Below the pieces are notes generated by a model. The model ran no database searches and was not told the origin of the DNA. It worked only from the letters and a program-made list of their open reading frames with translations. 35,922 nt of DNA. Origin: Candidatus Kuenenia stuttgartensis (GTDB taxonomy: Bacteria > Pseudomonadota > Alphaproteobacteria > SMXS01). Shown here piece after piece: positions 7,941 through 35,272 of this stretch. The position numbers and the translations under genes were made by a program. The stretch lies in assembly GCA_943329845.2 (NCBI GenBank), contig CALQFM020000042.1:1-35922 (forward strand), read 5' to 3'. The first letter of the stretch is position 1, and every line of letters starts with the position of its first letter.

Positions 7941-9028
<1,088 letters not shown>

Positions 9029-9043
9029 CTTCTCTCTCTTCTT

Positions 9044-9199
9044 GTCATCCCCGCCAAGCGAAGCGCGCGCGGGGACCCATGTCGATACAAGTTCGGTTGC
9101 TCAGATGCTGCGCCGGTCCGAGAGATGGGTCCCCGATCGCAACCCGCGCAAGACCACGATCCTGGCGGATCGTGGGCGCGGCAAGCGTCAGGGATGACA
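9044..9199. repeat. Divergent GTCATCCC-family element
   Basis: A non-coding stretch bounded by GTCATCCC at 9044 and GGGATGAC ending at 9199. The left part carries the GCGCGCGGGGACCCAT variant of the family unit (9064-9080), and ATGGGTCCCC recurs inverted at 9125-9134. It appears to be a degenerate copy of the paired elements at 3844-3988 and 27451-27598, with extra sequence at the right end. It sits directly downstream of mtnA. Confidence 0.65.
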
Positions 9200-9211
9200 G
9201 GTAGGGTGGCG

Positions 9212-9406
9212 CTAGCTTCGGCCAGCCGACCGGCGGCTGAGCAGGCGGCTTTCCTGGGCGCGGCGGTCAAGTTCGGCGCGGCAACTTTCGGCCATCCCGA
9301 AATCGCGGTTGCGGTGCGCGCGGACGAGCATGTCCACCAGTTCCGCACGCGAGCGTCTCGCGTAGAGCGAAGGGGTCGCAGGGCGGGCGAACAGATGAGC
9401 GTTCAT
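9212..9406 (-). CDS. Hypothetical small Arg-rich protein
   Basis: A possible 64-residue basic protein, not recognised. Its middle (RAELVDMLVRAHRNRDFGMAES) reads like a real amphipathic helix rather than a chance frame. The upstream region is unusually A/T-rich and contains a plausible sigma-70-like promoter on the same strand (TTGAAT, 17 bases, TATTGT). No strong ribosome-binding site precedes the ATG, and the C-terminus runs towards the repeat element at 9044-9199. A spurious frame cannot be excluded. Confidence 0.4.
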   Translation of the reverse strand: MNAHLFARPATPSLYARRSRAELVDMLVRAHRNRDFGMAESCRAELDRRAQESRLLSRRSAGRS

Positions 9407-9438
9407 GGGCGACGACTCGGGTTGATCTTATTTCCGCC

Positions 9439-9467
9439 ACAATATCGCCCAATACGGCCTCATTCAA
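9439..9467 (-). promoter_or_regulatory. Putative sigma-70-like promoter for the small gene at 9212-9406
   Basis: On the minus strand TTGAAT (9462-9467) is followed 17 bases later by TATTGT (9439-9444), in the only A/T-rich stretch of this 500-base gap. Predicted transcription would start roughly 26 bases before the ATG at 9406. This is pattern matching only. Confidence 0.3.
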
Positions 9468-9530
9468 TCGGTTATTTCAACTTTGAATTGATTTTGGCTG
9501 CAACCCCAGATTTTGCGCGGATTGCATCAT

Positions 9531-10163
9531 TCACGCGTCGCGGATCTGCTTGGTGGCATCGCGGATGATGTCGACGATGGCATCGACCTGGCTGTCGCCC
9601 AGCGTCTTGTCCCAGGCCCGCTGCCTGAGCGCGTCGCGCATCTCGTGCAGGGCGTGGCGCACCTCGCGGTGGCGGTGGCGGTGCTTCCAGAAGGCGGCCA
9701 CGTCGCCTTCCTCGTCCGGCGCGGCCTGCTTGTCGGCCTGCGCCTTGTCCATGCGGGCGAAGATGTCCTCGACCGTGGCCTTGTTGGCGTCGAGCGCGAG
9801 CAGTCCGTCCGGGGTCACCTCGAACAGCTTCTTGGTGCCGTCACTCCGGGCGGCACGGATCCAGCCCAGCTCCTCGAGCAGGGTGAGGGTGGGATAGATC
9901 ACGCCCGGGCTGGGCGTGTAGGCGCCCGCGACCCGGTCCTCGATGTCCTTGATCAGCTCGTAGCCGTGGCTCGGCTTCTCCGAGATCAGCCTGAGCAGCA
10001 GGAAGCGCAGGTCGCCATGGGCGAGGAAGCGGCCGATCCTCCCGCCGCCGCGGCGGCCGCCTTCGCCTTCTTCACGGCCGTGCTCGTGCCGGCGGCGCAT
10101 GCCCCGGTGGGTGGCGTGGCCGAACATCATGTTTCTAAGGGAGTTACGCATTGAGTTCCTCAT
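9531..10163 (-). CDS. PadR family repressor, NfeR/YqjI-like, His-rich N-terminus
   Basis: PadR-type winged-helix transcriptional regulator, 210 residues. After a His/Arg/Gly-rich leader (GHATHRGMRRRHEHG at 15-29, then a GRRGGGR stretch) comes the PadR domain: ELIKDIEDRVAGAYTPSPG and VIYPTLTLLEELG, about residues 50-125. A helical C-terminal part contains a second His cluster (HRHRH). This layout matches E. coli YqjI/NfeR, the nickel/iron-responsive repressor of a ferric reductase. The His clusters therefore suggest metal sensing, which is inference. The ATG at 10161-10163 overlaps the stop of the ferredoxin gene (ATGA), so the regulator is coupled to it. Probable operators lie upstream of the ferredoxin gene at 10472-10558, implying autoregulation. 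Confidence 0.88.
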   Translation of the reverse strand: MRNSMRNSLRNMMFGHATHRGMRRRHEHGREEGEGGRRGGGRIGRFLAHGDLRFLLLRLISEKPSHGYELIKDIEDRVAGAYTPSPGVIYPTLTLLEELGWIRAARSDGTKKLFEVTPDGLLALDANKATVEDIFARMDKAQADKQAAPDEEGDVAAFWKHRHRHREVRHALHEMRDALRQRAWDKTLGDSQVDAIVDIIRDATKQIRDA

Positions 10164-10459
10164 AGGGGTTGGTTGCGCGCGAGCGTGATCGCGTGCTCGG
10201 GGCAGGCCGCGACACACAGGCCGCAGGCCTCGCATTGGCCGGCGTTCACCACGAACGCCTGTTTGCCGCCATGCACGGCGACCTTCACGCGCGTCAGGAA
10301 AGACAGGGCGCCCCGTTCCCCGGCCGTCAGCGTGCGGACCGCGAACACGTCATAGGGACAGACGCGGACGCAGTCGGCCTTGCCCTCGCACCTGCGCGTG
10401 TCGATCACCGGCGCGAATGCGCCCGGTGTTTGCTTGCAGGTTTCGGTGCTGGCGGCCAT
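10160..10459 (-). CDS. Ferredoxin, two-cluster (probable 7Fe type)
   Basis: Small electron carrier of 99 residues with two Fe-S motifs. The first is C24-x5-C30-x3-C34-P, which lacks the central cysteine of a standard 4Fe-4S site. The second is the complete C76-x2-C79-x2-C82-x3-C86-P. By analogy with 7Fe ferredoxins this suggests one [4Fe-4S] and one [3Fe-4S] cluster. The segment between the motifs (about 41-70) is longer than in the 2x[4Fe-4S] clostridial type. It is the first gene of an operon with the PadR regulator. It is transcribed divergently from the thiC riboswitch, whose product is an Fe-S radical enzyme needing a reductant; whether this ferredoxin supplies it is unknown. Confidence 0.9.
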   Translation of the reverse strand: MAASTETCKQTPGAFAPVIDTRRCEGKADCVRVCPYDVFAVRTLTAGERGALSFLTRVKVAVHGGKQAFVVNAGQCEACGLCVAACPEHAITLARNQPL

Positions 10460-10471
10460 GGGGCGCTCCGT

Positions 10472-10558
10472 TATCGATACATCGATATATTCGATATAAC
10501 GAAAATACAGATATATCTAAATTATCGGCGTTTCAAGCCGGAATATCGATATATCGAA
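10472..10558. promoter_or_regulatory. Cluster of ATCGATAT-type palindromes, candidate PadR operators
   Basis: A markedly A/T-rich island in a G+C-rich region, between the ferredoxin start (10459) and the thiC riboswitch. Three palindromic blocks are seen. The first is 10472-10498, containing TATCGATA, ATCGATAT and TTCGATATA in a row; the second is the perfect palindrome AGATATATCT at 10509-10518; the third is ATATCGATATATCGAA around 10543-10558. Such spaced inverted repeats are typical of dimeric PadR-family operators. The position fits control of the ferredoxin-padR promoter and possibly of thiC. Confidence 0.6.
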
Positions 10559-10610
10559 ATCAATCGGATCGCCGCCGGTTGACGCCGCCGCCCATCGGTG
10601 CACATATTGG

Positions 10611-10708
10611 GCTCGTTCCAGGGGTGCCCTTAGGGCTGAGAGGACGCGGGGAAGAGCCGCGCAAACCCTTCGAACCTGATCCGGGTCATGCCGGCGAAGG
10701 GAAGGAGC
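10611..10708 (+). ncRNA. TPP riboswitch (THI element)
   Basis: Classic thiamine pyrophosphate aptamer in the thiC leader. Conserved parts in order are GGGGTGCCC (10621-10629), GGCTGAGA (10634-10641), an inner hairpin around 10643-10662, ACCCTTCGAACCTGATC (10665-10681) and CCGGCGAAGGGA (10691-10702). Stem P1 is formed by GCTCGTTCC (10611-10619) with GGAAGGAGC (10700-10708), eight of nine pairs. It should lower thiC expression when TPP is plentiful. Confidence 0.97.
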
Positions 10709-12604
<1,896 letters not shown>

Positions 12605-12610
12605 GCTCGC

Positions 12611-12877
12611 CTATTGGTCCAGCCGCATATCCATGAATGCGAAGGCTGCGGCTAGGTTTTTCATAACCTTGCCGCTGCCCTCCTGCGACAATGGAAGACC
12701 CGATCTCCATCGAAGCGCGTGGGTGTTTGTTACTGCTACCCTCATGCCGGAGCTCTCGATTTCCAGGTCAATGATTTGATCGCCCTGACGATACTCCGCA
12801 GTAAACCTGCCAGTGCGTTGGAATTCGAAGCCGTCGCTGCTGCGAACGCCTTGTTTATTTAGCCACACGAAGGTCAT
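12611..12877 (-). CDS. Hypothetical small protein downstream of trmO
   Basis: An 88-residue cytoplasmic protein. The sequence opens MTFVWLNKQGVRSSDGFEFQ and continues with alternating beta-like segments (GRFTAEYRQ, QIIDLEIE). The look is loosely that of Imm74-type immunity-fold proteins, a weak impression I could not test. Its ATG lies five bases after the trmO stop, so it is probably the last gene of the trmO transcript. Base composition is somewhat lower in G+C than its neighbours. No ribosome-binding site is obvious, which fits translational coupling. Function unknown. Confidence 0.6.
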   Translation of the reverse strand: MTFVWLNKQGVRSSDGFEFQRTGRFTAEYRQGDQIIDLEIESSGMRVAVTNTHALRWRSGLPLSQEGSGKVMKNLAAAFAFMDMRLDQ

Positions 12878-12882
12878 GGCGC

Positions 12883-13350
12883 TTACCAGTAGTCCCGCAT
12901 GATCTGCGCCGCCCACTCGGGCTCGCGGACCTCGCCGCGCGGCGCGAAGCCCTTCATCCAGGGCTTGATGTCCACCACCGGCGTGCCGTCGATGGCGTCG
13001 AGACCACGGACGGTGAGGGTGATGCCGTCCACCTTGAGCAGCGGGCAGACACACAGTCCCAGCCTGTTGGGCCGGTCCTTGCCGCGCTGGGCGAAGATGC
13101 CGACACGGGGCAGGTCCAGGTTGCCGCGCGGGTGCCGGGCGCCCGTGTGGACCTTCGAGTCGGCCAACAGGTGGAAATGGAACAGGATCTCCACGTGAGA
13201 GAACTGCTCCAAACCGGTCAGGGCATCGGGTCCGAAGACCTCGGGATCCAGTGCAATGTGGCTGTCGACGGCGTCCCAGCCATCGTCGATCGCCTCGGTG
13301 CGGGCGTTGCGAACGAAGCCGATGGGGAGCAGCAGGATGGCCTGTGTCAT
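12883..13350 (-). CDS. trmO: tRNA (N6-threonylcarbamoyladenosine37-N6)-methyltransferase, TrmO/TsaA type
   Basis: SAM-dependent enzyme that adds the methyl group of m6t6A37 in tRNA-Thr; the family was formerly called TsaA/VirR. The 155-residue protein has the beta-barrel family marks: an N-terminal LPIGFVRN, LEQFSHVEILFHFH, the SAM-site motif DRPNRLG (92-98) and DGTPVVDIKPW (121-131). The short C-terminus lacks the extra domain of E. coli TrmO, as in many alphaproteobacterial members. The start at ATG 13348-13350 is preferred over a frame beginning at 13458, whose extra residues are low-complexity. It lies 52 bases downstream of the EamA gene. Confidence 0.88.
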   Translation of the reverse strand: MTQAILLLPIGFVRNARTEAIDDGWDAVDSHIALDPEVFGPDALTGLEQFSHVEILFHFHLLADSKVHTGARHPRGNLDLPRVGIFAQRGKDRPNRLGLCVCPLLKVDGITLTVRGLDAIDGTPVVDIKPWMKGFAPRGEVREPEWAAQIMRDYW

Positions 13351-15736: not shown

Positions 15737-18691
15737 CTACTGCCCCATCTGGTCCGCCGGCAATCCGACCGGGCTGCTGACGGCATCGCCGTCGAGAATG
15801 TGCGGTTCCTCGTCCGTGGGCGACATGATCGCCTGGTCTTGCGGGGACGCCGGCTGCGGTGCCTCGGGCGCTGGCTCGGCCGGCATGGGGACGGTGTCGG
15901 GACGCGGTGACGCGTCCGGCGGCGTCGACGGGCGGAGCGGCGCCTGGCGCAGCGATTCCGGCTGGATCTTCGGCACCTTCAGCCGCGGCGCGGGGGCGGG
16001 CTCGGGCGGCGTGGCCGGCTCGGCCTGAACCGGCACCGGCTCGGGCGCTGTCACCGCCGACTCGGGGCGCGCCGGTTCCGGCGTGACCGGCGCGGGTTCC
16101 GCCCGAACTGGTTCCGCCTGAACAGGTTCCGCCTGAACAGGTTCCGCCGCCGGCCGGACCGGTTCCGGAGGCACTGGGGCGGCTGCCGGGGCAGGCTCGG
16201 CGTCTTGCTTGGGAACGGCGCGCAACAACTCCTGCATCCGCGTCTGCTCGGGGCTCGGCATCGTCGCCGGCTCGGGCTGCACGGGTGAAGCGGGCGGCGG
16301 CGGTTCGGGTGGCAGCGCGACGGGTGCAGGCTCGGCTTGCGCAGGCGCTGGAGGCGGCTCCGGCGCTGGCGACGGCGCGGGTACCACAGCCGGCGGCGGT
16401 TCGGGCGTTGCGGGCGGCGCCGGCTCGGCGGGCACCGGCTCGCTCGGCACGGGAACGTTGGGCACAGCAGGCTGATCGGCCGCGGGCAGGATTGCGGGTT
16501 CCACCGCCGCTGGCTCGGGCGCTGCCGGTTCGGCGGCAGGCGCCGGCCGTTCCTGCAGATAGCGGGCGCGTGCCCGGCGCAATTCCTCTTCCTGTGGCGA
16601 CGGCATGCTCGCCGGGGCGGCTACGTCCGGCGCTGGCGGCACGGGCGCGGGAGCGGGCGTGACCTCGGCCGGGACCGGCGCCTCCACGGGAGCCGCTGGC
16701 TGAACCTCGGGCGCCGGCGCCGGCGACGGCTCGACAGGCGCAGGTGCTTGGGGTGCTTCGGGTGCCACGGGCGCTGCCGGGACGGCAGGCGCGGGCGCTT
16801 CGGCGGGAACCGGCGCGGCCGGTACGAGAACAGACGGCGCCTCGGCAGGAGTGGCTGCGGGCTGATCGGCCGCGGGCTGGCCTAGGGGTTCCGGTATCGG
16901 CGCTGGCTCGGATACGGGTGCAGCCGGAGATGCTGGGCGATCCTGCAGGTAGCGGGCGCGCGCCCGGCGCAACTCGTCTTCCTGCGGTGACGGCAGAGCC
17001 GCCGGCATGGCTTCAGCCGGCGGGGGTGGCTCGGGCGGGGCGGCGGGCATCGCCACTGCTGGCGCCGAAAGCTCGGTGGGAACCGCGGGCTGAACCTCAG
17101 GCGCCGCCGCGGCGGGCGGCGGCGGTTCGGGGGCAACGGACGTTGCCTGCACCGGAGCAGGTGGTGCCTCGCCCGTCGCGGGTGCTTCGGGCGCCTGGGC
17201 GGCCGGTGACGTGGGTACGGCTTCAGCCGGCGCAGGCGGTTCAACCGGCGCCGCGGCCTCCGTCGGGGACGGTTCCACGGTCGGCGGCGGAGGTGCCGGC
17301 GGGTGATCCTGCAGCCACTTGGCGCGCGCCCGCTGCAACTCCTCGTTCTGCGCGGGCGGCGGCGCTGGAATCGCGGCGGCGGGCGGTTCCGACGCGGGCT
17401 CGGTGACGGTGGCCGGAGCAGGGGCAGCCGGCGGTTCGGCGGCCGCAGGCGGCGCAGCCTCGGCTGCTGTGGCCGTTTCGGGCGCCGGGGCGGGAACGGC
17501 TGCTGCGGGAACCGGCGCAACAGGCTCCGGCGCGGCGGCGGCTGGAGCGGGTGCCGCGGGCTGGGGCTCCACGGGAACAGGAGGCATCGCCGGCGCTGCT
17601 TCGACAACCGGCGGCGGCGCTGGCGCGACAGGTGGAGCAGGCGTCGGCGAGGCTGGCGCGGCCTCGGCAGCGGGCGCGGCCTCGATGGCAGGCGCGGCGG
17701 GCGGCGCCGGCGGCCTGGACTCCAGATATTTGATGCGCGCGCGCCGCAGCGCCTCGGCGTCAGCCGCCGACACGGTCGAGGCCGGCTCCGGCGCGGGCGC
17801 GGCGACTGGCACCGCCGGTTCGGCGGGCGCTGGTTGCGGGGCGGGAGTCGGGGCGGCCGGCGGAGTGGTGGAAGGCAGGGGCGCCGCTTCCTTCAGCAGA
17901 CGCTCGGGCGGGGGCGCGGCCGGTATGGGCGCGGCCTTGGCGGGCGCGGGCTGCTGCTTTCTGTCGGAGTCGGGGGCGCCGACCAGGCGCTCGGGCGGAA
18001 GTTCCGGCGGCAGGTCGGGCTCGCGCACGTCGGGCTCGGCCTGCTTTTCGGGCACCGGCGCCATCGAGGCGGCCTGGCCGGCGATTCGCAGCATGGACGA
18101 CCGGAGCGCGCGAGCGTTCTCCATCACCTGGTCGTCGTCCCGCGCTTCCCACATCACCGAGAAATCGTAGATCAGTTTGCCGCCAAGGTAGACCTGTCCG
18201 TATGGCATGACCGGCTGCCCCTGGATGGTCGCGCCGTACTGTCCCAGCGTGTTATTGGCGTAGTACTTGAACAGCTCCTTGTCGTAGATCGGCCGGCCGT
18301 CGGACGACGCCACCATCACGTCGAGCAGCCGCACCTCCACATTGGGCAGCTTGCTCGACAGGTAGTAGAGGACGCGGCGCAGGATGGCCTGCTGGTAGTT
18401 CGAGTACCTGCCGCCGTCATAGTAGAAGTTCACCACCAGAAGGGCGCGTTCCGAGTCGTTGATCGCCGTTTCGACGTTGAGGAACGGCATCTCCATCTGG
18501 GTGGAGCGATCCATCCGGAAATAGAAATAGGGCGACCGCCATTGGCCGTAATCGTCGATGCTGCCGCCGATGCGGGGAATGTCGGGCGCCTGGGACGGAA
18601 CGGGTCCGACCGGCTGGGCCAGCGCCGACGGCGACAGCAGGAGCATGCCCGCTACACAGCCGGTCATGGTCGCCGCCAATACACGTTTCAT
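15737..18691 (-). CDS. Exported Pro/Ala-rich modular protein
   Basis: A 984-residue protein with a Sec signal peptide (MKRVLAATMTGCVAGMLLL, cleavage after ALA near residue 25). A conserved-looking globular N-terminal domain spans about residues 35-210, with aromatic segments such as WRSPYFYFRMDRS and YGQVYLGGKLIYDFSVMWEA; I do not recognise it. The remaining 750 residues are almost entirely Ala, Pro, Glu and Val. They are interrupted at regular intervals by a charged motif of the form E-L-R-R-A-R-A-R-Y-L-Q-D/E-R-P at residues 313-327, 450-464, 572-586 and 702-716, with a decayed copy near 818. The spacing is 122-137 residues. The tail probably forms an extended periplasmic or surface rod. It may follow the HMG-CoA-lyase-like gene 75 bases upstream on the same strand. 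Confidence 0.88.
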   Translation of the reverse strand: MKRVLAATMTGCVAGMLLLSPSALAQPVGPVPSQAPDIPRIGGSIDDYGQWRSPYFYFRMDRSTQMEMPFLNVETAINDSERALLVVNFYYDGGRYSNYQQAILRRVLYYLSSKLPNVEVRLLDVMVASSDGRPIYDKELFKYYANNTLGQYGATIQGQPVMPYGQVYLGGKLIYDFSVMWEARDDDQVMENARALRSSMLRIAGQAASMAPVPEKQAEPDVREPDLPPELPPERLVGAPDSDRKQQPAPAKAAPIPAAPPPERLLKEAAPLPSTTPPAAPTPAPQPAPAEPAVPVAAPAPEPASTVSAADAEALRRARIKYLESRPPAPPAAPAIEAAPAAEAAPASPTPAPPVAPAPPPVVEAAPAMPPVPVEPQPAAPAPAAAAPEPVAPVPAAAVPAPAPETATAAEAAPPAAAEPPAAPAPATVTEPASEPPAAAIPAPPPAQNEELQRARAKWLQDHPPAPPPPTVEPSPTEAAAPVEPPAPAEAVPTSPAAQAPEAPATGEAPPAPVQATSVAPEPPPPAAAAPEVQPAVPTELSAPAVAMPAAPPEPPPPAEAMPAALPSPQEDELRRARARYLQDRPASPAAPVSEPAPIPEPLGQPAADQPAATPAEAPSVLVPAAPVPAEAPAPAVPAAPVAPEAPQAPAPVEPSPAPAPEVQPAAPVEAPVPAEVTPAPAPVPPAPDVAAPASMPSPQEEELRRARARYLQERPAPAAEPAAPEPAAVEPAILPAADQPAVPNVPVPSEPVPAEPAPPATPEPPPAVVPAPSPAPEPPPAPAQAEPAPVALPPEPPPPASPVQPEPATMPSPEQTRMQELLRAVPKQDAEPAPAAAPVPPEPVRPAAEPVQAEPVQAEPVRAEPAPVTPEPARPESAVTAPEPVPVQAEPATPPEPAPAPRLKVPKIQPESLRQAPLRPSTPPDASPRPDTVPMPAEPAPEAPQPASPQDQAIMSPTDEEPHILDGDAVSSPVGLPADQMGQ
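16094..16154 (-). repeat. 15-bp tandem repeats inside the Pro/Ala-rich gene
   Basis: Four consecutive units of the form GGTTCCGCCTGAACA (plus-strand reading); the two central units at 16110-16124 and 16125-16139 are identical. They encode repeats of Ala-Glu-Pro-Val-Gln. Because the unit is 15 bases, copy-number change would keep the frame and alter the length of the rod-like tail. Confidence 0.8.
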
Positions 18692-18766
18692 GGAAGCCCC
18701 GATTCCACGCTGAGCCCTGCGCATGTTCTCGTACGCCCTTGCGCGCGATGCAAGAGGCGCGGTGCG

Positions 18767-28328: not shown

Positions 28329-31300
28329 CTACTCGGCCGGAACCGCCACGCCGTCCGGCACAACGTGGGTGACCGGCTCGGGCTTCCTGCGCGAAAGCAG
28401 CGTGTAGAACGCCGGGACGATGAACAGGGTGAAGGCGGTGCCGAAGGTCATGCCACCGACCAGCGCCCAGCCGATCTCGTGGCGGCTTTCGGCGCCCGCG
28501 CCGGTGGCGAGCGCGAGCGGGATGGCGCCGAGCACCATGGCGCCCGTGGTCATCAGGATCGGGCGCAGGCGCAGAACGGCGGCCTCGATCACCGCCTCGA
28601 CCTTGGTCTTCCCCTGCTCCATCTGTCGGTTGGCGAACTCGACGATCAGGATGCCGTGCTTGGTGATCAGCCCGATCAGCGCGATCAGGCCGATCTGGCT
28701 GTAGACGTTGAGTGTGCCGCCGGTGAGCTTCATGGTCGCTAGCGCGCCGCCGATGGCGAGCGGCACGGTCAGCATGATGATCAGCGGGTCGACGAAGCTC
28801 TCGAACTGGGCCGACAGGAACAGGTAGATGAAGCCCAGCGCCAGGATGAAGGTGATGGCCATGCTGGTGCCGGACTGCTTGAATTCGCGGGCGTTGCCCT
28901 TGTAGTCGACCTGCATGCCCGGCGCGACCTCGTGGGTCGTCTTCTCCAGCACGTCCAGCGCGTCGCCGAGATTGTAGTCCGGCGTCAGATTGGCGGTGAT
29001 CGTCGCCGAACGCAGTTTGTTGAAGTGGTTGAGTTCGCGCGGCGTCACCGATTCCGTCATGTCGACCAGGCTCTCCAGCGGGATCATCTGGCCGTCCTTG
29101 TTGCGCACGAAGATGGTCCGCAGGTGCTCGGGATTGCGCCGGTCCACGTCCTCGATCTTCAGCACCACGTCGTACTGCTTGTTGCCGCGCTTGAAGTGGG
29201 TGACCTCGCGGCTGCCCAGCATGGTTTCGAGCGTCCGGCCCACGTCGTCGACGCGCACGCCGGTCGCCGCTGCCTTGTTGCGGTTCACGCTGATCTTCAG
29301 CTCGGGCTTGTTGAGCTTCAGGTCGTTGCGCAGCGCCGCGAAGCCCGGGGTCGTCGAGGCGCGCTCCATGACCTTGTCGGCGGCGGCGTTCAACTCCTCG
29401 TAGCTACCGGTCGTCTGGATCACGAAGTCGATGTTGGCGTCCTGCGGCGAGCTGCCGAACGCGCCCGGGTTGTTGGGCAGCGCGATCACGCCGGGGACGG
29501 CCGCCATCTTCGGCGCCATCTCCTTCTGGATCTCCAGTGAGCCTCGGCTGCGCTCCTTCCAGGGCTTGAGCAGCACGAAGGAATAGCCCTGATTCACCGT
29601 CGGCCGGCCGACCGCCGTGTAGAAGTTCTTCTGCACGTCCGGGCTGGCGATGTAGAGCTTCTCGAGCTCCGCGGCATACTTGCTCATGTATTCGGGTGTC
29701 GCGCCTTCGGGGCCGAGGAAATAGCCGACGAAGAACCCCCGGTCCTCCTGCGGCGACAGCTCGTGCTTCAGCGTGGAATACAGAAATGCGGTGCCGACCG
29801 CGATGCAGCCCGCCAGGATGAAGATGGCGTTGCGCCGCTGCATCGCCGCCGTCAGCGCGCGGCGGTAGCTGCGCATCAGGCCGCCGAAGACCGCATCGAT
29901 ACGGCGGGACAGCCAGCCGCTCTCGCGCTCCTTCATGCTCAGCATCTTCGAGCACATCATCGGAGTCAGCGTCAGAGCGACGAAGCCGGAGATCAGCACC
30001 GCGCCCGCGAGCGTCAGGGCGAATTCGGTGAACAGCTTGCCGGTGCGCCCGGGCGTGAATGCGACCGGCGCGAAGACCGCGACCAGCGTCAGCGTCATGG
30101 CGATGATGGCGAACCCGATTTCCTTGCTGCCCTTCAGCGCCGCCTCGCGCCGTGGCTCGCCATGTTCCATGTGCCGGTAGACGTTTTCCATCATGATGAT
30201 GGCGTCATCGACGACGAGGCCGATGGCGACCACCATGGCGAGCAGGGTCAGCGAGTTGATGCTGAACCCGAACATGAAGATCAGGAAGAACCCGCCGGTC
30301 AGGGCGATCGGGATGGTGAGCAGCGGGATCAGGGTCGCGCGCCACGATCCCAGGAACAGGAAGATCACCGCCAGCACCAGCACGAAGGCTTCGGCGATGG
30401 TGACATACACGGCGTCGATGGACGCTTTCACATAGACCGACTTGTCCCAGTTCACCTCGCCCGTGACGCCCTCGGGCAACGACTTGAGCAGCTCCGGCAG
30501 GATGGCATGGACTTCGTCGGCCACGGCCAGAGGATTGGCCTTGCCCTGCTTGACCACCCCCAGCGCCGTGGCCGGACGGCCGGAATAGCGGGCGATCTCG
30601 CGGTTCTCCTCGGCGCCCAGCTCGACCTTGGCCACGTCCTTGATGCGGACCAGATAGCCATCGGCGTCCTTCAGGACGATCTGCTCGAATTCCTTGGGCG
30701 TGTTGAGGTCGGTTTCGGCAAGGACGGTGAACTCGCGCTCCTTGCTCTCGATGCGGCCGGCCGGGATCTCCACGTTCTGCTGGCGCAGCGCGTCCTCGAC
30801 GTCGGCGGGCGTCAGGCCGTAGGCGGCGAGGCGGGTGCGGTCCAGCCAGATCCGCATGGCGTAGTAGCGCGGGGCGTAATAGATCACCTTGGCGACGCCA
30901 GGCAGCACCTGCAGCCGGTCCTTGATCAGCCGGTCGGCCGCCTCGGTGACCACGAGCTGGTCGAACTTGTCGCTGTAGAACACTACCCAGATCAGCGCGC
31001 CGGCGTCGGCCTCGACCTTGCCGATCACCGGTTCGTCGATCTCCTTGGGCAACTGGCCGCGGGCGCGGGACACTCGGTCGCGCACGTCGCTGGCGGCGGC
31101 GTCCTCGTCCCGGTCCAGCTTGAAGCGGACGGTGATCTCGCTCTTCTCGGCGCGGCTGATCGAGCTGATATAGTCGATGCCCTCGATGCCGGCGAGTTCC
31201 TCCTCGAGCGGGATCGTCACCTGGGATTCGATGACCTTGGCGCTGGCGCCCGGATAGCGGGTCTCGACGCTGACCACGGGCTGGTCGATGTCGGGGTACT

Positions 31301-31406
31301 CGCGCACCGAGAGACGGTCGAAGGCGATCAGACCCAGCAGTACCACCAGCACGTTGATGACGGTCGCGAAAACCGGACGGCGGATGCTGAGTTCGGAGAT
31401 CCTCAT
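28329..31406 (-). CDS. RND efflux transporter permease (HAE1/AcrB-like)
   Basis: Inner-membrane proton-driven pump of 1025 residues, the energised part of a tripartite efflux system. There are twelve expected helices and two large periplasmic loops. The opening MRISELSIRRPVFATVIN, the YPGASAKVIESQVT segment, and the paired proton-relay aspartates Asp400-Asp401 in VVDDAIIMMENV (equivalent to AcrB 407/408) are clear. So is the second-half repeat with QIGLIALIGLITKHGILIV in two stretches. It is the second gene after a membrane fusion protein gene, two bases apart. No outer-membrane TolC-type gene is present here, so a remote partner is assumed. Substrate range is not deducible. Confidence 0.97.
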   Translation of the reverse strand: MRISELSIRRPVFATVINVLVVLLGLIAFDRLSVREYPDIDQPVVSVETRYPGASAKVIESQVTIPLEEELAGIEGIDYISSISRAEKSEITVRFKLDRDEDAAASDVRDRVSRARGQLPKEIDEPVIGKVEADAGALIWVVFYSDKFDQLVVTEAADRLIKDRLQVLPGVAKVIYYAPRYYAMRIWLDRTRLAAYGLTPADVEDALRQQNVEIPAGRIESKEREFTVLAETDLNTPKEFEQIVLKDADGYLVRIKDVAKVELGAEENREIARYSGRPATALGVVKQGKANPLAVADEVHAILPELLKSLPEGVTGEVNWDKSVYVKASIDAVYVTIAEAFVLVLAVIFLFLGSWRATLIPLLTIPIALTGGFFLIFMFGFSINSLTLLAMVVAIGLVVDDAIIMMENVYRHMEHGEPRREAALKGSKEIGFAIIAMTLTLVAVFAPVAFTPGRTGKLFTEFALTLAGAVLISGFVALTLTPMMCSKMLSMKERESGWLSRRIDAVFGGLMRSYRRALTAAMQRRNAIFILAGCIAVGTAFLYSTLKHELSPQEDRGFFVGYFLGPEGATPEYMSKYAAELEKLYIASPDVQKNFYTAVGRPTVNQGYSFVLLKPWKERSRGSLEIQKEMAPKMAAVPGVIALPNNPGAFGSSPQDANIDFVIQTTGSYEELNAAADKVMERASTTPGFAALRNDLKLNKPELKISVNRNKAAATGVRVDDVGRTLETMLGSREVTHFKRGNKQYDVVLKIEDVDRRNPEHLRTIFVRNKDGQMIPLESLVDMTESVTPRELNHFNKLRSATITANLTPDYNLGDALDVLEKTTHEVAPGMQVDYKGNAREFKQSGTSMAITFILALGFIYLFLSAQFESFVDPLIIMLTVPLAIGGALATMKLTGGTLNVYSQIGLIALIGLITKHGILIVEFANRQMEQGKTKVEAVIEAAVLRLRPILMTTGAMVLGAIPLALATGAGAESRHEIGWALVGGMTFGTAFTLFIVPAFYTLLSRRKPEPVTHVVPDGVAVPAE

Positions 31407-31408
31407 GG

Positions 31409-32476
31409 CTAGTTGGCCGAGGCGCTTCGGACGTTCACCGGCGCGCCGTCATGGAGCTTGAGCTGGCCGGCGGTAACCACCGTGTCGGTCGCAGACAGGC
31501 CGGACAGGATCTCCACCAGGCCGTCGCGGCGGATGCCGGTCTTCACCTGGGTCATGGCCGCCTTGCCGGCGGTGACCTTGTAGACGAAATGGTCAGTTCC
31601 CTGCGGGATGATCGCTTCCTCGGGGATCAGGATGGCGTTCTCGTGCCGCGCCAGCCCCAGCGAAGCGCGGGCGAACAGGCCGGGCCGCAGCACCCGGTCG
31701 CCGTTGCCGGCGCGGGCGCGGATGGCGAGGCTCCGGCCGTCCACGTCGACCTGCGGATCGATGGCGTAGACCTTGGCCTCGAAGGTCTGGCCGGGCAGGG
31801 CGTCGAGCTGGAACTTCACGCTCTGTCCCATGGCGACCTGCGCCAGGTAGAGCTCCGGCACCCGGAACTCCAGCTTGATCGGGTCGATGACGTCGAGAGT
31901 GACCAGATCCTGGCCGGGGGTAACGTAGTCGCCGACCGCCACCTTGCGCAGGCCGGCCACGCCGTCATAGGGCGCGGTGATGCGGGTCTTGGCCATGCGG
32001 GCGCGGGCTAGCGCGACGGTCGCCTCGTCCATGCGCATCTTCGACAGGCTTTCGTCGCGGGTACGCTGCGAGGCGGCGCCCTTGGTCAGCAACTCGGCGG
32101 CGCGCTGGTTGTTGGCCTGGCTGAGGGTGAGGCTGGCCTGGGCCTGGGCCAGTTCGGCCTCGTAGATGGAGCTGTCGAGCGCGATGAGCAGCTGGCCCCT
32201 GTGCACCGGCTGGCCCTCCTGGAAGCCGAGCGCGGTGACCACGCCGGCCAGTTCGGGCCGCATCACGATCGAGTCCTCGGACCGCAGGGTGCCGATGGCG
32301 TTGACCTCCTGCTGCATGGGCTGCACGCGGACAGGCACGGCCTCGACGATCACTCCGTTGCCTGCGGACGGCACCGCGCTGGCGGGGTCACCGTTGCGGA
32401 AGAAGCCCCAGTACACACCTACGCCTATCACCAGCACGGCAATGGCCGCGACGCCGATTTTCCTGTTGTCCCGCAT
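31409..32476 (-). CDS. RND efflux membrane fusion protein (HlyD/MexA-like periplasmic adaptor)
   Basis: Periplasmic adaptor linking the RND pump to an outer-membrane channel. From ATG 32474-32476 it is 355 residues: one N-terminal membrane anchor (about 7-25), a first lipoyl half (EVNAIGTLRSEDSIVMRPE to about 101), an alpha-hairpin (about 104-160), a second lipoyl half from TRITAPYDGVAG, then beta-barrel and membrane-proximal domains (FEAKVYAIDPQVDVDGRSL). A GTG at 32531-32533 would extend it by 19 basic residues and cannot be excluded; neither start has a strong ribosome-binding site. It is first in a two-gene operon with the pump. The gap to the TonB-receptor terminator contains its promoter. 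Confidence 0.93.
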   Translation of the reverse strand: MRDNRKIGVAAIAVLVIGVGVYWGFFRNGDPASAVPSAGNGVIVEAVPVRVQPMQQEVNAIGTLRSEDSIVMRPELAGVVTALGFQEGQPVHRGQLLIALDSSIYEAELAQAQASLTLSQANNQRAAELLTKGAASQRTRDESLSKMRMDEATVALARARMAKTRITAPYDGVAGLRKVAVGDYVTPGQDLVTLDVIDPIKLEFRVPELYLAQVAMGQSVKFQLDALPGQTFEAKVYAIDPQVDVDGRSLAIRARAGNGDRVLRPGLFARASLGLARHENAILIPEEAIIPQGTDHFVYKVTAGKAAMTQVKTGIRRDGLVEILSGLSATDTVVTAGQLKLHDGAPVNVRSASAN

Positions 32477-32613
32477 CCGTTTGCCGGCCGCCTGTTGTTT
32501 CCCCGTTATCCGGCGGCCGCCATTAACCAGCACACGCGCAGATTTATGCAGACTCTAGGCTGTGCAGCTTTGTTTGTCACCTGCGCCGCGTGGCCGATGG
32601 CAGTGCCGCGCAT

Positions 32614-32640
32614 AAAAAAAGGGGAGCCCGAAGGCTCCCC
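32614..32640 (-). terminator. Rho-independent terminator of the TonB-dependent receptor gene
   Basis: On the minus strand GGGGAGCC, loop TTCG and GGCTCCCC form a perfect eight-pair stem (32621-32640), followed directly by seven T residues (32614-32620). It lies 29 bases after the receptor stop codon, a textbook intrinsic terminator and the strongest in the window. Confidence 0.93.
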
Positions 32641-32668
32641 CGAAGTCTTTGATGTCGTGCTTCTCTGA

Positions 32669-35272
32669 CTAGAAGTCGAACGAGACCTTCACGCCATAGG
32701 TGCGCGGGTTGTTGTCCTGGATGAAGTTGAACAGCGTGGCCACCGCGGTCAGCGACTGCATGTAGTGGGCGTTGCCGATGTTCTTCATGAACAGGGAGAT
32801 CCGGTAACGGTCCTCGATCTCGCGCCAGGTGATGCTGGCGTTGAAGATGTGGGCGCTGCCGCGGATCGGAGTCACCAGTACGCCGTTGTAGTTCAGCAGG
32901 CCGGTAACCAGACCGGCGGGGACGCCGTTCGAGGCCTGGTTGTTCTTCGACTGGTAGCGCCAGTCGCCGGCCAACTCGATGGTGCCCGCATTGCCGACCG
33001 GGACCTCGTAGGCAAAGCCGGCGGCCAGGGTCCACTTCGGCGCGCGCACGTTCGGCACGAGCACCTGGGTGGGGAAGATGTAGAACGTCGTTCCGTTGTC
33101 GAGGTAGGAGAACGCGTTGTCCGGGTCGCAAGAGCCGGAGGCCGGGCCCGGATTGACCGTGCTGGGGCCGTCGATGTCGGTGCAGAAATCACGGCTGCTC
33201 TTGAGCCAGCCCAGCGATCCCCAGATCGTCAGGCCGTCGGCCGGAAGCGTGGTGACTTCCAGTTCGACACCCTTGGACTTGGCGTTCGCCGCGTTGTCCG
33301 TGACGGTCTCCTGGCCGCCGCCCGAACCGGACGACTGGCGGATGATCGATACCTGCTGGTCCTTGTAGTCCAGGTAGAAGCCGGTCAGGTTGACACGCAG
33401 CCGGTTGTCCATCCCATCCCACTTCATGCCCACTTCGTAGGAGTCCGCGGTCTCTTCGTTGAACGGCTGGCAGGTCGCGGTGGAGCCGCAACGGCCATTG
33501 AAGCCGCCCGAGCGGAAGCCGCGGGTCCAGCTGGCATACAGGAACAGGTCGTCGTTCGCTTCCCAGCTCAGGCCGACCTTGGGGCTGACGTTGCTCCAGT
33601 TGTTCTTGCGGCCAGCGGCGGTGTTGATGTCGGTGTCGCTGTCGAAGAAATTGCCAACCGCCGGATTGAGGTTGCACTCACGGTTGACGCCATCGTTGAC
33701 CGGCGACGGGGCGCAGGTTTCGATGTCCTTCTTTTCCTTGTTGTAGCGCAGGCCGGCGGTGAGGGTGATGCCCTCCCAGATGTGCCAGTTGGCGTTGATG
33801 AAGGCGGCCCAGGCATTGTTGGTCTGGATCGTCTCGCCGAAGCCCGACGCATTGGGGTTGAGGGCATCGAGGGCCGCACCCGGATTGGGAGCGCCGGTCA
33901 GTCGGCCGACGATAGCCGAGCCGAGGGCTCCAGCGAAACCGGGATCGAACAGCCAGCCATAGGTGTCCTGCCACATCCGGTATTTTTGGTGGAAGAAGTA
34001 GAATCCGGCGACGAAGTCGATCGTGTCGGAGAAGCTCGACGCGAAGCGCAATTCATGGCTGGTCTGGTTGTGCCACTGCTCGCGCTGGGTCATGAAGATC
34101 GGCAGGTCGGTCGTGTCGAAGTCGTTGAAAACGTCTTCGTGCACGTCGCGGTAGTTGCCTACATAGGTGAACGTGCCGAAATCCGGGACGTCATAGGTGA
34201 ATTCGCCGGTGATGCCGTAGACGTCGAAGTCGGAGCCGCGGCCGCTGGTGTTGTCGGCATGGACAATGAAATCGTTCTTGCCGCGCTCCTGGGCGCAGAC
34301 CTTGTCCAGGTCCTCCTGGCCGCCATGGGCCCAGGAAACCAGCGGCGTGAGCTGCGTGACGTTGCCAGGCACGGTGCCGTAATTGTTGGCCGCGAACGGA
34401 TTGAACACGCCGTTGGCGCCGCCGCACGCGCTGTAGGGCGTGTTGCCCCAGCTGTCGTCCCGCTCGCGCACGATCTCGCCGCGGATGACGATGTCCAAAT
34501 TGTCGTTCGGCGTGAAGCGGAACGACGGCAGGATCGTGATGCGGTCGGTGCCACCATAGTTGGTGCCATCGGTGGCGTTCTTGTAGAAGCCGTCATTGTT
34601 CGTCGACTTCACGGCGAGGCGCATGCCGGCCTTGCCCTCGATCAGCGGCACATTGATGACGCCCGAGATGTCGAGCTCGCCATAATTGCCGGCCGTGAAC
34701 TCGCCCTTGACGTCGAATTCCGACGTATCGGGCTTCGCGTGGCTCACCAGCACCGCGCCGACGATGGTGTTGCGGCCGAACAGGGTGCCCTGCGGACCGC
34801 GCAGGATTTCAACGTTCGTGATGTCGAGCAGATCGCTCAGAGCCGTCGAGGTGCGGGCCTGGTAGACGCCGTCGATGAAGATGCCCACGCCCGGATCGGT
34901 GGCGGACTCGATGTCGGCGCTGCCGAAGCCGCGGATATAGAAGGCCGAGGCGTTCTGGAAGGCGCCGACGGGTTCCAGGTTGACGTTCGGCGCCTGCGAC
35001 GTCAGATCGCGAAGGTCGACGGCGAAAGTCCGTTCCAGCTGCGCGCCGGAGACCGAGGTGGTGGCGACCGGCGTGGTCTGCGCCGAGGTCTCGACGCGCG
35101 TCGCGGACGTCACGACGGTTTCCAGCTGGGTCCTCGGCCCGGTCTTCGCCGGTTGGGTGGCCGGTGCCGGCGCGTCCTGCGCCGCGGCGAAGCTGGCCGA
35201 AAGCGCGAATGCTGACACGGTCGCAAGCGCTAACGGCCATTTCGGCGCGTATGTGAATTTGGATTGCTTCAT
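32669..35272 (-). CDS. TonB-dependent outer-membrane receptor
   Basis: Ligand-gated outer-membrane beta-barrel of 867 residues energised by TonB-ExbBD. It has a signal peptide (cleavage near AAA-QD, residue 31), a TonB-box-like ETVVTSA at 51-57, a plug domain from about 60 to 190 including VEILRGPQGTLFGRNT (154-169), a long barrel, and the C-terminal strand YGVKVSFDF ending in Phe. The sequence is of the broad class common in sphingomonads and other alphaproteobacteria, often linked to uptake of organic compounds rather than siderophores. The ligand is unknown. GGGGAG precedes the ATG. It is divergent from tenA across a 435-base region with a 22-bp palindrome and has its own terminator, so it is probably monocistronic. 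Confidence 0.96.
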   Translation of the reverse strand: MKQSKFTYAPKWPLALATVSAFALSASFAAAQDAPAPATQPAKTGPRTQLETVVTSATRVETSAQTTPVATTSVSGAQLERTFAVDLRDLTSQAPNVNLEPVGAFQNASAFYIRGFGSADIESATDPGVGIFIDGVYQARTSTALSDLLDITNVEILRGPQGTLFGRNTIVGAVLVSHAKPDTSEFDVKGEFTAGNYGELDISGVINVPLIEGKAGMRLAVKSTNNDGFYKNATDGTNYGGTDRITILPSFRFTPNDNLDIVIRGEIVRERDDSWGNTPYSACGGANGVFNPFAANNYGTVPGNVTQLTPLVSWAHGGQEDLDKVCAQERGKNDFIVHADNTSGRGSDFDVYGITGEFTYDVPDFGTFTYVGNYRDVHEDVFNDFDTTDLPIFMTQREQWHNQTSHELRFASSFSDTIDFVAGFYFFHQKYRMWQDTYGWLFDPGFAGALGSAIVGRLTGAPNPGAALDALNPNASGFGETIQTNNAWAAFINANWHIWEGITLTAGLRYNKEKKDIETCAPSPVNDGVNRECNLNPAVGNFFDSDTDINTAAGRKNNWSNVSPKVGLSWEANDDLFLYASWTRGFRSGGFNGRCGSTATCQPFNEETADSYEVGMKWDGMDNRLRVNLTGFYLDYKDQQVSIIRQSSGSGGGQETVTDNAANAKSKGVELEVTTLPADGLTIWGSLGWLKSSRDFCTDIDGPSTVNPGPASGSCDPDNAFSYLDNGTTFYIFPTQVLVPNVRAPKWTLAAGFAYEVPVGNAGTIELAGDWRYQSKNNQASNGVPAGLVTGLLNYNGVLVTPIRGSAHIFNASITWREIEDRYRISLFMKNIGNAHYMQSLTAVATLFNFIQDNNPRTYGVKVSFDF

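Follow-up and report, generated by a model that had tools for sequence, protein, structure and literature searches.

Locus and gene layout

In E. coli the PadR-family protein NfeR, also known as YqjI, is the repressor of the ferric reductase NfeF (YqjH). The locus described here, part of a stretch of 35,922 nucleotides that was analyzed as a whole (the window), places a regulator of this kind next to a ferredoxin, and raises the question of whether an NfeR-type switch can be attached to an electron carrier instead of a reductase. On the minus strand the ferredoxin gene is followed directly by padR, and the AT-rich region containing the predicted operators lies 5' of the ferredoxin. Further 5', and divergent, are a TPP riboswitch and then thiC. 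The features are:

9531..10151 (206 aa, preferred second ATG) or 9531..10163 (210 aa), minus strand: PadR repressor of NfeR type (PF03551; identity to NfeR)
10160..10459, minus strand: dicluster ferredoxin, 99 aa (Fer4 family matches)
10468..10502: predicted proximal degenerate operator block, with TATCGATA at 10472-10479, GATACATC at 10476-10483 and GATATATTC at 10484-10492, largely kept in the congener G005
10509..10518: predicted operator core AGATATATCT, inside CAGATATATCTAAAT, kept in G005 at the same place
10521..10549, minus strand: predicted ferredoxin-padR promoter TCGATA-N17-GATAAT, from a consensus scan only, overlapping operator sequence
10546..10557: predicted second operator core TCGATATATCGA, a 12-nt perfect palindrome that fits the consensus of 90 cores and is absent from G005
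10610..10720, plus strand: TPP riboswitch of the divergent thiC (Rfam RF00059, 72.5 bits), a neighbour outside the switch

A first-pass annotation of the sequence had described an ATGA overlap of the two genes. The ferredoxin TGA does share ATGA with a possible PadR ATG at 10163, but the ATG at 10151, four codons later, is the more likely start, because an AGGA overlapping the ferredoxin stop lies 5 nt before it and because G005, a species of the same genus, has the same ATGAGGA..ATG layout. No sequence resembling a ribosome site was seen before the first ATG on reading the sequence. A promoter consensus scan of 9350-10770 found two matches, against a mean of 0.3 in shuffled sequences. The predicted thiC promoter (10579-10608) is 21 bp from the distal operator, and cross-talk between the two is possible.

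Elsewhere in the window, the ferrous iron uptake genes feoB and feoA (143-2295) are on the same strand as the PadR-ferredoxin operon, about 7 kb away. A 64-aa frame without a Pfam family (9212-9406) overlaps a segment, 9265-9505, that is 72% identical in G005. A 995-aa open frame at 15737-18724 has a very high Pro and Ala content and repeated segments resembling RARxxYLxxRPxxP; the G+C content of 16001-18000 is 78%. Three genes in a row on the minus strand (28329-35272) presumably encode an RND pump (1025 aa), a CusB/HlyD-type membrane-fusion protein, and a TonB-dependent receptor.

Regulator and operators

The PadR protein matches PF03551 (E value 4e-16; 59.2 bits against a Pfam cut-off of 27) and shares 38% amino acid identity with E. 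coli NfeR over 182 aa (residues 20-201; E value 2e-27), a likeness that extends beyond the winged helix. A structure model computed from the single PadR sequence was poor (mean pLDDT 43) and was not used. This identity, together with the operator core described below, bears out the earlier assignment of the protein as NfeR/YqjI-like and, judged from the sequences, both regulator and operators are of NfeR type.

The first-pass annotation had placed a dense set of ATCGATAT palindromes upstream of the operon. The region 10472-10557 is indeed AT-rich and contains four perfect palindromes of 8-12 nt, namely AGATATATCT (10509-10518), TCGATATATCGA (10546-10557), ATATCGATAT (10543-10552), and TATCGATA (10472-10479), but the named sequence ATCGATAT is off register and is not itself a palindrome. 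It has three matches in the window, a number reached in 1 of 100 shuffles. The conserved element is instead GATATATC, present in two copies at 10510-10517 and 10548-10555, and at least two copies arise in 0.3-0.4% of local shuffles. ATCGATAT and TATCGATA were rejected as the operator, with TATCGATA found in 4 of 47 parsed loci of the same class against 41 of 47 for GATATATC.

All 15 nt of window 10508-10522, CAGATATATCTAAAT, recur in the spacer between nfeF and nfeR of E. coli. When the window spacer was shuffled 2000 times with its dinucleotides preserved, no shuffle reached this length, and the longest match was 13. The E. coli spacer has AATTAGATATATCTAATT towards nfeR and CAGATATATCTAAAT towards nfeF, and in E. 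coli NfeR would be expected to bind the GATATATC core. The same spacer is also bound by another protein, PepA, according to an excerpt of PMC8249747.

The genome to which the window belongs has nine GATATATC sites, against 18 for the backward control pattern; over the whole genome, then, the 8-mer by itself shows no enrichment. Two sites are at the locus, and the other seven (six inside predicted genes, one near a contig end) revealed no second regulated gene in this genome. Eight further TATCGATA sites comprise five inside predicted genes and three between genes (L072, L074, L075), each single and without GATATATC. All of these placements are rough, since the genes were predicted by a simple codon-position script. 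The single TATCGATA at 1535-1542 of L075 (contig C68) lies downstream of another ferredoxin gene, which from the first residues of its product we take to be an FdxA-type 7Fe ferredoxin; the genome would thus have a second ferredoxin, of that kind.

Survey of NfeR-like loci

A profile of ten NfeR-like PadRs (A3) matched 48 of 385 genomes of the class at an E value of 1e-15, and all 48 loci were examined. In a sample of the phylum it matched 73 of 398 genomes at 1e-25, and 24 new loci among these were read. In 41 of the 47 parsed class loci (40 of 46 without the window) GATATATC occurs in the 650 bp that precede the winged-helix codons, and six loci lack it there; the unparsed locus, L109, has two cores beside its PadR. 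The remaining 230,611 bases of the class loci contain four occurrences. Promoters have a lower G+C content than this background, so a second control carries more weight: of the 64 palindromes of eight bases that contain two G+C, the runner-up to GATATATC reaches 4 of 47 loci. The core is also present in 22 of the 24 further loci, giving 63 of 71 parsed loci in total. Alignment of 90 cores, the two of the window included, yields the consensus [A/C]GATATATC[T/G], with T or G following in 86 of 90, and both window sites fit it.

The genes beside these regulators are varied. As judged by HMMs and tblastn, the partner in the 48 class loci is DUF2218 in 19 cases, NfeF/SIP in five, a ferredoxin in one (the window), and none of the three in 23. 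The corresponding figures for the 24 further loci are seven, eight, zero, and nine. Together, the 72 loci have 26 DUF2218 partners, 13 partners of the NfeF family, and the single ferredoxin of the window, although distant partners will have been missed because most loci were taken with 1.5-kb flanks only. As only 13 of 72 loci carry it, an NfeF partner was not treated as defining the NfeR-type regulator. DUF2218 and NfeF occur together in none of the 72 loci against 4.7 expected (hypergeometric P 0.0014, a value that ignores kinship and comes mostly from 1.5-kb flanks). An excerpt of PMC11317620 locates DUF2218 in metallophore clusters as well as next to an iron uptake regulator in Vibrio, and suggests for it a role in regulation or transport. 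Among the literature matches listed, which cover the field in part, no title concerned a PadR protein or NfeR controlling a ferredoxin.

Ten neighbour proteins, seven from the 23 loci that have none of these three partners and three from others, were compared with Pfam and gave DUF2218 once, DUF3861 three times (one below the cut-off), ABM once, and no family in five cases. In L086 (1059-1511) and L089 (1079-1498) the NfeR-like PadR is followed by a related protein of 140-151 aa that has the motif FVCLRCSxKLPDG and no Pfam match; it is perhaps another NfeR effector. In L091 the PadR is beside a convergent gene with an antibiotic biosynthesis monooxygenase (ABM) domain, and the product of the convergent gene next to the PadR of L090 looks like the L091 protein.

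Nature of the signal

Excerpts of PMC7981267 report that excess nickel relieves the repression of nfeF by NfeR, that nfeF is up 85-fold in Klebsiella without nfeR, and that the Klebsiella nfeR deletion shows no nickel phenotype in vitro. The first-pass annotation had pointed to His clusters in the PadR of the window. Such clusters are present, with four His in the N-terminal stretch and five in the C-terminal KHRHRHREVRHALHE stretch, but the totals of 11 His and no Cys differ from the 14 His and eight Cys of E. coli NfeR, whose N-terminal stretch holds 12 of the 14 His and seven of the eight Cys. With no Cys, and with four N-terminal His in place of 12, the PadR may respond to another metal than NfeR does, or even to another kind of signal.

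It is conceivable, if unlikely, that the PadR represses the operon through the same operators while responding to a non-metal signal (redox state, a flavin, or a siderophore-like compound, for example), in which case its His residues would be remnants. Besides the composition of the protein, this reading draws on the spread of the N-terminal His count, which runs from 0 to 16 across the 49 loci listed, and on the variety of partner genes. Two observations weigh against it: the core of its operators matches that beside genes of the NfeF family and in E. coli, and the window and G005 have in common a C-terminal KHRHRHRE cluster that is in no other of the 49 loci listed. Sensing of a metal remains our preferred reading.

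The partner gene in the congener and in the genome of the window

The PadR of G005 is 75% identical to that of the window, and thiC and the proximal operator block are also there. Its locus has the order thiC, operators, PadR, with DUF2218 instead of the ferredoxin. In a blastn comparison of window 9001-13000 with this locus (L021), identity is 82% over 9527-10055, which is most of PadR, 91% over 10469-12605, which is the operator side and thiC, and 72% over 9265-9505. The block 10056-10468, containing the ferredoxin and the start of PadR, is unmatched, and the DUF2218 block of G005 (L021 7232-7547) is likewise without a counterpart in the window, which has 21 bases in its place. Alignment of the spacers shows that the sequence from AGATATATCT to ATAACG is largely kept, right to the junction with the ferredoxin; the distal TCGATATATCGA is present in the window and not in G005. 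The ferredoxin is a rare variant of the partner, and takes the place that DUF2218 has in the sister species. DUF2218 also follows the PadR of another congener, G006, a protein less closely related to that of the window (35%). At an E value of 1e-10 the ferredoxin is absent from the six other genomes of the genus, two of which are only 78% and 84% complete.

The genome of the window has no match to DUF2218, PF08021, or FhuF_C at an E value of 0.01, a search in which two or three of 14 control genomes were positive each time. The earlier claim that the partner is a ferredoxin and no ferric reductase is in agreement with the lack of a match to PF08021, the NfeF family. FhuF was rejected as the electron acceptor of the ferredoxin, there being no FhuF_C match in this genome; the excerpts of PMC8068687 and PMC11965169, consulted for ferredoxin as a donor to FhuF, gave nothing bearing on the present case.

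Characteristics and distribution of the ferredoxin

Motif I of the ferredoxin has the form C-x5-C-x3-CP, with the second Cys replaced by K27, and motif II, CxxCxxCxxxCP, is complete. An extra, eighth Cys is located at position 8. All eight are invariant in 23 rows of alignment A4, and C8 is missing in L007. The 7Fe type that had been proposed for this protein is plausible from the loss of the second Cys of motif I, but given the invariance of C8 in A4 the protein may instead be of 8Fe type, with C8 supplying the eighth cluster ligand. Comparison of an AlphaFold2 model (mean pLDDT 87.7) with the PDB gave PsaC chains of photosystems and two archaeal 3Fe-4S/4Fe-4S ferredoxins, 2vkr and 1xer (E values 4e-4 to 6e-4), both of which are among the four best matches.

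The subfamily is rare, occurring in 7 of 385 genomes of the class and 5 of 398 of the phylum, the own genome included in both, and in 3 of 279 genomes of the class of G722. A set of 38 distinct ferredoxin loci was assembled from the window, six class loci, 22 further loci (24 from a contig search minus L046 and L050, which repeat class loci), three from the phylum, two from the class of G722, and four of seven plasmid matches. An NfeR-like PadR adjoins the ferredoxin in three of the 38, namely the window and two Nevskia genomes, and was not found alongside in the other 35, some contigs ending near the ferredoxin. Five genomes (G038, G332, G361, G536, G612) have both genes unlinked, about 27 kb apart in G612. 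In the ferredoxin tree, from which one of 35 rows (L057) was dropped because its motif was missing, the window and Nevskia rows are not joined (support is weak and the bootstrap not settled), which makes two couplings likely: the pairing probably arose independently in the window lineage and in Nevskia. In the same tree L058, a MAG contig titled Rickettsia typhi with 55% G+C, groups tightly with L059 (Comamonadaceae) and L060 (Betaproteobacteria), and the label looks wrong.

Had the coupling been general, homologues of the PadR should commonly co-occur with the ferredoxin, as the first-pass annotation recognized. They do so in one of the 72 NfeR-like loci and three of the 38 ferredoxin loci, which speaks against a general pairing. 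The congener, which keeps regulator and operators with another partner, and the Nevskia pair nevertheless point to an uncommon variant rather than to an absent coupling. The rarity could also mean that the ferredoxin is a passenger that arrived in the operon by chance; its role would then be housekeeping or unrelated, and its co-transcription of no benefit. The 35 ferredoxin loci lacking the PadR, their mixed neighbours, and the absence of such a ferredoxin from the other 71 NfeR-like loci examined all speak for this. We nevertheless regard it as improbable, slightly more so than a non-metal signal, because a subfamily found in so few genomes recurs beside NfeR in Nevskia, the ferredoxin frame is open, and its junction with the operators is tight.

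Least credible of all is a service of the operators mainly to thiC, or to both directions: the distal operator does sit 21 bp before the predicted thiC promoter, and thiC adjoins the locus in G005 too, but thiC has its own TPP riboswitch, GATATATC precedes PadR in 63 of 71 parsed loci (thiC as a neighbour was considered for the window and G005), and G005 lacks the distal operator but conserves the block that adjoins padR.

Proposed mechanism and its implications

As an explanation of the whole locus we favour, with moderate confidence, an autoregulated ferredoxin-padR operon of NfeR type that is released by metal; autorepression, metal release, and the ferredoxin role are what we infer here. 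PadR dimers would occupy the two palindromes with GATATATC cores and the degenerate proximal block, all of which lie in the stretch bounded by the ferredoxin start and the thiC riboswitch. To judge from gene order and the conservation of the operators, bound PadR would cover the operon promoter and thereby repress ferredoxin and padR together. By homology, a surplus of divalent metal would bind to the His clusters and cause release of the repressor; the likeliest metal is nickel, to which E. coli NfeR responds. The ferredoxin thus freed might act as a soluble carrier of electrons at times when iron or Fe-S metabolism is upset by metal stress, taking the place that NfeF has in E. coli and that DUF2218 would have in the sister species. 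Two evolutionary routes may be envisaged, the direction of change being itself conjectural. Either the ferredoxin gene came to lie next to the operator block in this lineage, ahead of the ribosome site of padR, and the downstream DUF2218 was lost, or the ancestral locus was larger and each lineage has lost one of the partners.

A broader and more tentative proposal is that the NfeR locus is an exchangeable slot, in which one metal-stress switch with one conserved operator governs alternative effectors (NfeF, DUF2218, ferredoxin, perhaps DUF3861) that replace one another because their redox or iron functions are equivalent. DUF2218, NfeF, and the ferredoxin, as alternatives under one switch, may have a common iron or redox task. 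If so, DUF2218 would act in iron reduction or electron delivery, with the ferredoxin standing in for it here.

These results suggest that in bacteria the gene controlled by an NfeR-type metal-stress switch can be exchanged for another. Two species of one genus provide a natural difference in partner at one locus, with the same regulator and operator block and another effector gene. Since the switch is common to both, the purpose of the NfeR nickel response and the role of DUF2218 can be asked by comparing effectors. The computed operator, [A/C]GATATATC[T/G], allows NfeR-type loci to be recognized in other genomes.

Comparison with known systems

The ferredoxin resembles the 7Fe ferredoxins of Acidianus (2vkr) and 1xer in predicted fold and in a motif I without the second Cys, and is unlike them in the extra Cys at position 8 and in an aligned identity of only 27-28%. 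With the NfeR-NfeF system of E. coli the locus has in common a PadR winged-helix repressor that is 38% identical, an N-terminal stretch containing His (four, against 12 in NfeR), the operator core AGATATATCT within 15 identical nt, and a regulator gene adjoining its presumed target. It differs in that the E. coli partner is an FAD ferric reductase in place of a ferredoxin, the E. coli genes are divergent whereas here they form a same-strand operon with the partner first, the regulator has no Cys, and the genome has no NfeF-family match. The NfeR-type PadR-DUF2218 loci (19 of the 48 class loci, G005 included) share the regulator family and operator core, and that of G005 is syntenic, but DUF2218 lies downstream of padR there and the ferredoxin upstream of padR here. 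In the Nevskia loci L040 and L043 the order is PadR, a short DUF3861-like frame (below the Pfam cut-off in L043), and ferredoxin, unlike the window; they nevertheless come close to it in having an NfeR-type PadR preceded by GATATATC and a ferredoxin of the same subfamily, 65-66% identical.
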